A DNA stretch of 64,000 nt from NCBI RefSeq assembly GCF_020783315.1, contig NZ_CP086063.1, positions 1,786,501-1,850,500 of the forward strand. The letters are read 5' to 3'. Source of the DNA: Ferruginibacter lapsinanis (lineage in GTDB: Bacteria; Bacteroidota; Bacteroidia; Chitinophagales; Chitinophagaceae). The notes under the pieces were generated by a model. That model made no database searches, had not been told where the DNA came from, and saw only the letters and a list, made by a program, of their open reading frames with translations. How positions within the stretch are numbered: position 1 is the first letter of the stretch; every line of letters starts with the position of its first letter. Shown here in pieces: positions 13,260-20,513 of the stretch. Made by a program: the position numbers and the translations under genes.

Positions 13260-13331
13260 AACTAAAAAAAATAGTTGAAAAATAATTTTGGTAAACTAAA
13301 AAAATTAGTATATTTGTGCTAACCAAATTAG
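13260..13331 (+). promoter_or_regulatory. Promoter and three CTAA-N5-TTAG operators of the S24 repressor
   Basis: A -33 TTTG (13287-13290) and a -7 TATATTTG (13309-13316) are 18 bp apart. The dyad CTAA-N5-TTAG occurs exactly at 13296-13308, between the two boxes, and at 13319-13331, over the expected transcription start and just before the ATG at 13339. A third copy with one mismatch (CTAA-N5-ATAG) is at 13262-13274, upstream of the -33 box. This layout is what an autorepressor would use. Confidence 0.65.
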
Positions 13332-13338
13332 TTAAACC

Positions 13339-14091
13339 ATGTCTCAAGCCGGTCAAAACCTTAAATATCTTCGCAAGTTGCGTGGATGGACACAAGAGGA
13401 ATTCGCAGAAAAACTAGGGATCAAGCGTTCTTTAATTGGTGCTTACGAAGAGGAGAGAGCAGATCCCCGCCTCGAAGTGTTGGAAATAGTCAGTGATATT
13501 TTTAAACTGAGTTTAGATGAACTGCTGTTAAAGGATGTAAGCAATACAGGCGGAAGCTATTTGGCTAAACGTCGCCAGCAAAAAATGATGACTGCCGACA
13601 GGAATGTCATTCATTTTGTACCGGTAAAAGCGGCGGCGGGTTACCTGGCCGGTTATGCAGACAATGAATTTATCGATGAGTTAAACACTTTTACGCTGCC
13701 AATGCTGAGCGGTGGTAATTACAGGGCTTTTGAAATAATCGGAGACAGTATGTTGCCAACCCCAAGCGGTAGTATTATTGTTGGTGAGAAAGTTGACGAT
13801 ACAGAAGATGTAAAAAATAATCAGGCGTATATAGTGGTAAGCAGAAACGAAGGGATCGTATATAAAAGAATAGTAAAAAATAATAAAACAAAGAATAAAC
13901 TAACATTGGTAAGTGATAATCCGCAGTATCAGCCTTACCAGGTGAATGCCGAGGATGTGGTGGAATTGTGGGCAGCACAGATGGTCATCAGTAAAGTTAG
14001 TGCACAGCAACGCTGGGATGTGAATTCGCTGGCAAGTATGGTGAACAATTTGCAGAGCCAGGTGAGTACATTGAAAAAGAAAATGAATTAG
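13339..14091 (+). CDS. XRE-family repressor with S24/LexA-like autocleavage domain
   Basis: A 250-residue regulator. Residues 6-64 form an XRE helix-turn-helix (LRGWTQEEFAEKLGIKRSL). Residues 94-180 form a peptidase S24 domain with an intact serine-lysine pair: S137 in GDSM and K176 in VYKRI. The likely self-cleavage bond is A100-G101 in KAAAGYLAGY. The C-terminus (MVNNLQSQVSTLKKKMN) looks like a short coiled coil. By analogy with LexA and phage CI, damage-activated RecA would trigger cleavage; that link is inference. Three dyad operators surround its promoter, and ssb follows 179 bp downstream, suggesting a DNA-damage theme. Confidence 0.9.
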   Translation: MSQAGQNLKYLRKLRGWTQEEFAEKLGIKRSLIGAYEEERADPRLEVLEIVSDIFKLSLDELLLKDVSNTGGSYLAKRRQQKMMTADRNVIHFVPVKAAAGYLAGYADNEFIDELNTFTLPMLSGGNYRAFEIIGDSMLPTPSGSIIVGEKVDDTEDVKNNQAYIVVSRNEGIVYKRIVKNNKTKNKLTLVSDNPQYQPYQVNAEDVVELWAAQMVISKVSAQQRWDVNSLASMVNNLQSQVSTLKKKMN

Positions 14092-14270: not shown

Positions 14271-14699
14271 ATGATCAAGTTACAAATTGTAGGCAACCTT
14301 GGTAAGGATTGCATTGTAAAAGAAGTAAACGGAAAGAACGTAATTAACTTCAGCGTTGCTCACACAGAGCGTTTTAAAGACAGTCAGGGAAATCAAAAAG
14401 AAAGAACAACCTGGGTAGAATGTGCTTACTGGACAGATAGAACAGCCGTTGCACAATATCTTACTAAAGGAAAAACAGTGTATGCTGAAGGGGCGCCTGA
14501 AGCAGAAGCATATATGAATAAAGATAATCAGGCGGCAGCTACTTTGCGTATGAGAGTGCAAAGTGTTCAATTGCTTGGCGGTAGTGGCGGAGACGCTCCG
14601 GCTCAACGTCCGGCTTCTTCTTCATCATCAGTTACCAGTTCGCCATCAAGCGGATCGATAGCAAGTGATTCGCCTGTTGCAGACGATCTGCCGTTCTAA
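14271..14699 (+). CDS. ssb: Single-stranded DNA-binding protein
   Basis: SSB (142 residues) coats single-stranded DNA in replication and repair. Residues 1-105 are the OB fold (MIKLQIVGNLGKDC, INFSVAHTERF, TTWVECAYW, GKTVYAEGAPEAEAYMNKD). A Ser/Pro-rich linker (PASSSSSVTSSPSSGS) leads to the acidic tip DDLPF that recruits partner proteins. It ends at a terminator shared with the convergent gene. Genomes of this group often carry several ssb copies; whether this is the main one cannot be told here. Confidence 0.95.
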   Translation: MIKLQIVGNLGKDCIVKEVNGKNVINFSVAHTERFKDSQGNQKERTTWVECAYWTDRTAVAQYLTKGKTVYAEGAPEAEAYMNKDNQAAATLRMRVQSVQLLGGSGGDAPAQRPASSSSSVTSSPSSGSIASDSPVADDLPF

Positions 14700-19438: not shown

Positions 19439-19524
19439 TTTACCTTGTTTCGTGGCACAGGAAATAATTTTGTTACATTTTATTTTGCTGTTTCGTATGC
19501 CAGGAAACAAGGTAGGGAGACGCT

Positions 19525-20157
19525 TCCATATAATGTAGATATGTTGCTTTGAGTTGTGGGAAGCTTTCTACCTGATGTAGATGTGTTGCTTTGGGTTGTG
19601 GGAAGCTTTCTACCTGATGTAGATGTGTTGCTTTGGGTTGTGGGAAGCTTTCTACCTGATGTAGATATGTTGCTTTGGGTTGTGGGAAGCTTTCTACCTA
19701 ATGTAGATGCGTTGCTTTGAGTTGTGGGAAGCTTTCTACCTGATGTAGATGTGTTGCTTTGGGTTGTGGGAAGCTTTCTACCTGATGTAGATTTGTTGCT
19801 TTGAGTTGTGGGAAGCTTTCTATCTAATGTAGATTTGTTGCTTTGAGTTGTGGGAAGCTTTCCGCTATAAGCGGATGTGTTGCTTTGGGTTGTGGGAAGC
19901 TTTCCGCTATAGGCGGATGTGTTGCTTTGGGTTGTGGGAAGCTTTCCGCTATAGGCGGATGTGTTGCTTTGGGTTGTGGGAAGCTTTCCGCTATAGGCGG
20001 ATGTGTTGCTTTGGGTTGTGGGAAGCTTTCCGCTATAGGCGGATGTGTTGCTTTGGGTTGTGGGAAGCTTTCCGCTATAAGCGGATGTGTTGCTTTGGGT
20101 TGTGGGAAGCTTTCCGCTATAGGCGGATGTGTTGCTTTGAGTTGCAGGAAGCTTTCC
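19525..20157. repeat. Tandem array: 15 copies of a 42-bp unit with a covarying stem-loop
   Basis: Each unit has a 24-bp core (starts GTTGCTTTG, ends GGGAAGCTT), a 15-bp stem-loop and a 3-bp joint. Cores start at 19543 and repeat every 42 bp up to 20131. The first six stem-loops are TCTAC-CTRAT-GTAGA and the seventh is TCTAT-CTAAT-GTAGA, which leaves one T/G mispair. The next seven are TCCGC-TATAR-GCGGA. Two base pairs of the stem are changed on both sides, so pairing is kept. A degenerate stem-loop (TCCAT-ATAAT-GTAGA) precedes the first core, and the last core (GTTGCAGG variant) runs into TCCGGGCCC. Frames through it are open only because 42 is a multiple of three. Confidence 0.95.
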
Positions 20158-20246
20158 GGGCCCTAAGGTCGGTGTCGTCACCGATCGACGATGAGTGGGG
20201 GAGTACCAACCAAGGATAAAACCCCGCCGGGAGGGAGGAGTTTTCT

Positions 20247-20293
20247 TTACTTTTTTTTCTTGACAAAAAAAAGTAACAAAAAAAATCAAGGAC
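20247..20293. repeat. Right flank repeat of the 42-bp array
   Basis: TTAC-T8-CTTGACA-A8-GTAA forms a long A/T hairpin, followed by an A run and ATCAAGGAC. It is a compact version of the left flank at 19369-19438. Together they bracket the array as imperfect direct repeats. Confidence 0.6.
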
Positions 20294-20513
20294 AACAGCA
20301 ACGCCTCCGGCGCTTTGTCCTGCCAACGCCACATGAAGTGTATTTGAATTGTTTATAGGGTTCTTAAGTGGAGGATTATTGAAGTGCTATTTTATGTTTG
20401 TTAGTATTACAGATTTGTTGGTGGGATATTTTATTGATAGGGTGAAGTTTTACAAGTGATCGTACCGAGGAGGGGGGAGTAATGATTTATTGCAGAAGAG
20501 GGAGTTTTTATAA

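Follow-up and report, generated by a model that had tools for sequence, protein, structure and literature searches.

The LexA-like protein and its gene neighbourhood

The locus comprises a lexA-like gene at positions 13339–14091 (+ strand) of the window, i.e. of the whole stretch of 64,000 nucleotides that was analysed, with a promoter that carries CTAA-N5-TTAG dyads, and downstream of it, on the same strand, the ssb gene for a single-strand binding protein (14271–14699, +). The preliminary description had given the span of the lexA-like gene as 13260–14091; the gene is indeed present there, but this start coordinate takes in the operators, and the open reading frame itself corresponds to 13339–14091. 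Its 250-aa product, a non-canonical LexA, combines an Xre/CI-type HTH (recognition helix region IKRSLIGAYEEERA) with an S24 autoprotease. Both domain assignments exceed the curated cut-offs: HTH_3 (PF01381; the penta-helical, phage-repressor type) was identified at residues 8–62 with 54.8 bits (cut-off 23) and Peptidase_S24 at residues 98–210 with 40.2 bits (cut-off 23.3). None of the LexA DNA-binding models, i.e. the LexA winged HTH (PF01726), matched the N-terminus, which instead matches HTH_3, HTH_19 and HTH_31. Among the NCBIfam models the phage RstR family scores best, though without reaching its cut-off, and the AlphaFold model, built from a shallow alignment, is too poor (mean pLDDT of 53) to confirm the fold.

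The sequence elements associated with self-cleavage are invariant across the aligned orthologues (n=11), as the preliminary description had led us to expect: A100-G101 (in KAAAGYL) is the predicted scissile bond, and S137 (in GDSM) together with K176 (in IVYKR) is the predicted catalytic dyad. The distances from A to S (37 residues) and from S to K (39 residues) are near those in the E. coli LexA, where the corresponding residues are A84, S119 and K156. Orthologues occur genus-wide at 74–92% identity. The 3.46-Mb genome has only two S24 genes, and since the other one is UmuD, the lexA-like gene is its sole HTH-S24 candidate regulator.

The lexA-like gene has housekeeping neighbours, among them ssb and a 5'-nucleotidase SurE-like gene, and ssb follows it on the same strand in 36 of 40 loci. 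The 179-bp gap between lexA and ssb has neither a dyad at 0–1 mismatch nor a recognizable terminator-like site; for want of a dyad in the gap, ssb was rejected as a separately regulated target. Elsewhere in the window, a 284-aa ORF at 19480–20334 consists of repeated units of roughly 13 residues each (GKLPTTQSNTSAYS-like), which also give rise to ORFs on the opposite strand; it is likely to be a tandem-repeat array, not a normal gene.

Operators in the lexA promoter

The lexA promoter has two perfect dyads on the + strand: O2 (CTAAAAAAATTAG, 13296–13308) lies between the -33 and -7 elements, and O3 (CTAACCAAATTAG, 13319–13331), 23 bp from O2, covers the presumed transcription start. The promoter elements were read from the sequence as TTTTG at -33 (13286–13290, +), within a T-rich block conserved in the aligned promoters, and as the Bacteroidota -7 element TATATTTG (TAnnTTTG; 13309–13316, +), which is kept in relatives. 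The placement of the dyads over the -33/-7 region and the start site thus agrees with what had been proposed, and the coordinates of all three dyads noted earlier, two perfect and one mismatched, are exact.

Comparison of 42 lexA promoters from congeneric or near genomes (the window, L001–L010, L062–L090 and L109–L110; 40 of them distinct) revealed that O2 and O3 are always 23 bp apart, start to start (42/42), and are both perfect in 41 of the 42, the exception being Flavihumibacter petaseus (L010), with one mismatch in O2. When the distinct promoters are aligned, the half-sites prove invariant in nearly all relatives and the O2 spacer varies. In simulated 208-bp intergenic stretches with the dinucleotide content of the region itself, 0.0097 perfect dyads are expected per stretch, and two or more occur in a fraction of 0.0001; the two perfect dyads thus exceed chance by far, and their conservation is stronger evidence than the simulation.

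The third dyad (CTAAAAAAAATAG, 13262–13274, +) carries one mismatch and probably arose by chance in A-rich DNA: 0.23 such dyads are expected per 208 bp, so that its occurrence is unremarkable, and no counterpart was found at the same position in the lexA promoters of relatives. It was therefore rejected as a third operator, and the three-dyad set suggested previously is reduced to the two conserved sites at 13296 and 13319. Over the whole 64,000-nt window the loose motif (up to one mismatch) shows no enrichment (29 observed vs 41.5 expected).

Predicted regulon

The scan of the complete genome (3,455,339 bases, one contig) identified 39 perfect CTAA-N5-TTAG dyads, about half the number found for the reversed-pattern control (76); most of them lie within coding genes and were set aside as coding-sequence coincidence, as were those that several relatives have where a PorV-like coding sequence begins. 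The extended form ACTAA-N5-TTAGT has eight perfect occurrences, six of them intergenic, upstream of lexA, recA, umuDC, a DnaQ/GIY-YIG exonuclease gene, a C5 DNA methyltransferase gene and mreB. Three perfect dyads precede umuDC (818178, 818191 and 818214), recA has one perfect dyad and a one-mismatch dyad 23 bp upstream of it, and dinB has CTCA-N5-TTAG (one mismatch) about 22 bp ahead of its apparent GTG start. No dyad was found upstream of recN or of the SRAP gene of this genome, and both were rejected as LexA targets.

The preliminary description had proposed looking for the dyad at genes of the imuA/dinB/recA type and had regarded its absence elsewhere, together with a lack of effect of its mutation on expression, as evidence against an operator. 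Perfect dyads are present at recA, umuDC and the exonuclease gene, and a mismatched one at dinB, but imuA is a target in relatives only: the Y-family genes of this genome are dinB and umuC, there is no ImuB-type gene among them, and the imuA-imuB-dnaE2 cassette appears to be absent. Among 12 congeners, in which the identities of genes at the dyads were checked on representatives, the perfect 15-mer occurs upstream of recA (9), umuDC (6), the DnaQ/GIY-YIG exonuclease gene (4), imuA (3), a topoisomerase IV/gyrase B-like gene (2) and uvrA.

Several further genes were noticed beside these sites. A gene of the 2'-5' RNA ligase superfamily is divergent from umuDC and has a common operator array with it (L057:1172-1226; L122, L127, L143, L145, L153); the two are probably co-regulated. 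The UmuD protein of the genus (L057:1247-1675 and relatives) reads NATGF at the position of the E. coli UmuD cleavage site, which is Cys24-Gly25; its predicted scissile bond is therefore Thr-Gly. DNA methyltransferase genes, of the C5 type in this genome and adenine-type-looking in one relative, have a perfect extended dyad 13–17 bp ahead of the start codon (L026:1501-1513; L115), and a perfect dyad lies 76–81 bp upstream of a LEA_2-domain lipoprotein-like gene in this genome and one relative (L054:1501-1513; L114).

The mreB site (739892–739904 in this genome; L027:1501-1513) recurs as a perfect dyad about 140–170 bp upstream of the start in 10 of 19 congeners (L171–L189) and in none of 10 genomes that represent other families of this order. 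Its spacers and flanks have diverged (median identity 50%). In nine of the ten dyad-bearing congeners the gene upstream of mreB is purH, named by eye from its C-terminus and co-directional with mreB, so that mreB is the likely target of the dyad there; any effect of LexA on it could be of either sign, because the dyad is located upstream of the apparent conserved core promoter. If mreB does belong to the regulon, DNA damage would change cell-wall elongation and cell shape. The main text of the 2021 description of the family (PMC8565304) makes no mention of mreB as a target.

Agreement between the protein and its operator was also found beyond the genus. Among homologs from the order's other families, which are about 32–50% identical, 8 of the 9 with a GAYEE recognition helix carry a dyad with at most one mismatch no further than 60 bp from the start codon, compared to 0 of the 7 without it (Fisher p = 0.0014, for a small sample and uncorrected for relatedness).

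Spacing of the paired operators

The 23-bp pairing is found at lexA (42/42), in most pairs at recA (others being 21, 22 or 24 bp) and at umuDC (6 genomes). The pair at lexA flanks the -7 box, at about -20 and +3; at recA the pair lies upstream of the -7 box, which to judge from its sequence is TATCTTTG and stands 19 bp beyond the nearer operator. Because the pairs are placed differently with respect to the -7 box, the spacing is not set by promoter geometry. It equals that of the lambda OR operators, which are 23–24 bp apart from centre to centre and to which CI dimers bind cooperatively via the C-terminal domain. The recurrence of the pairing at three promoters suggests that two dimers of the LexA-like protein may cooperate in a CI-like manner. 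The combined proposal, of a cooperative dimer pair on dyads spaced as for lambda CI and of a regulon that reaches mreB in the genus, is put forward tentatively, as somewhat more likely to fail than to hold. The 23-bp pairing is not mentioned in the main text of PMC8565304.

Proposed mechanism and alternative explanations

From these features we infer the following course of events. LexA dimers would bind the two dyads 23 bp apart in their own promoter and would shut off lexA by occluding the start site and the spacer between the -33 and -7 elements; the same repressor would bind the dyads at recA, umuDC, dinB, the exonuclease gene and a small number of further genes. Upon DNA damage, RecA loaded on single-stranded DNA would form a filament that presumably stimulates self-cleavage by S137/K176 at A100-G101. 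Such cleavage would part the HTH from the dimerizing C-terminal domain and free the regulon, the repressor gene included.

Could the protein instead be a CI-type repressor of a prophage, which controls only phage genes and itself? HTH_3 followed by S24 is the phage-repressor architecture, and the best NCBIfam match, although below its cut-off, is a phage family; however, the neighbours are housekeeping genes (ssb, the SurE-like gene and others), the orthologues are found genus-wide at 74–92% identity with ssb adjacent in 36 of 40 loci, and the operators are located at the chromosomal recA and umuDC instead of phage genes. The prophage reading is thus strongly disfavoured, and we consider it extremely improbable. 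A regulator that acts on its own gene, perhaps together with ssb, with the SOS genes under the control of another protein, would agree with the observation that the only non-coding perfect dyads of the window are those of the lexA promoter. Yet the dyad also occurs at recA and umuDC, likewise in pairs 23 bp apart, and the genome has no other HTH-S24 protein that could take this role, which makes such a restricted function very improbable.

Hardly any more credit can be given to a protein that serves as an activator or acts without self-cleavage, e.g. by ligand sensing. According to the authors of the 2021 study, activation stays possible short of a non-cleavable mutant (PMC8565304), but the lexA operators overlap the core promoter and the start site, and the cleavage residues are invariant. 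The lexA-like gene therefore very probably encodes the SOS master repressor, a non-canonical LexA of the CTAA-N5-TTAG group that is autoregulated and predicted to undergo RecA-triggered self-cleavage.

Relation to known SOS repressors

The domains, the conserved operators and the dyads at recA and umuDC support the original interpretation of the gene as a LexA-like, autoregulated damage repressor or sensor of Bacteroidota, and they match a published family: the interpretation is correct but not new, as the family was described in 2021 by Sanchez-Osuna et al., who reported phage-repressor-like LexA proteins in Bacteroidota, including the CTAA-N5-TTAG group (PMC8565304). For members of this family, binding to CTAA-N5-TTAG was demonstrated by EMSA with mutated dyads, and induction by mitomycin C was shown; the reported targets include recA, umuDC, imuA-imuB-dnaE2, ssb, the GIY-YIG exonuclease of COG0847 and parCE, and Chitinophagaceae, the family of the present bacterium, were named among the families with large regulons (PMC8565304). 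Our analysis brings one more genus under this recently recognized SOS system, in a phylum long believed to have none, and provides clean material for comparison, with half-sites that are invariant, spacers that vary freely, a fixed 23-bp pairing and agreement of recognition helix and operator, which makes both the cooperativity and the extension of the regulon to mreB directly testable.

Membership in the group was judged on the domains, the residues, the motif in the protein's own promoter and the target genes, with the Pontibacter protein compared by description. Like the CTAA-N5-TTAG group (Pontibacter actiniarum WP_025606010.1; PMC8565304), the protein possesses HTH_3 and S24, the A-G bond and the S/K dyad, and the dyads occur at its own gene, recA, umuDC and the COG0847 GIY-YIG/DnaQ exonuclease, as well as, here in relatives, at imuA and topoisomerase IV. 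No difference of kind was found; the fixed 23-bp pairing and the genus-level mreB dyad are additions. The GGA-N5-TCC group (S. agarivorans WP_075324850.1; PMC8565304) belongs to the same family and exhibits the same architecture, but it has another operator motif and is found mainly in Flavobacteriaceae, unlike the gene described here. HdiR of Lactococcus, UmuDAb of Acinetobacter and lambda CI are likewise damage-responsive non-LexA repressors of the S24 family, but with small or phage regulons, other operators and, according to PMC8565304, independent origins. The canonical LexA of E. coli is also an S24 autoprotease and an autoregulated SOS repressor, but it binds the CTGT-N8-ACAG operator with a winged HTH (PF01726), whereas the protein analysed here possesses an HTH of the CI/Xre type.
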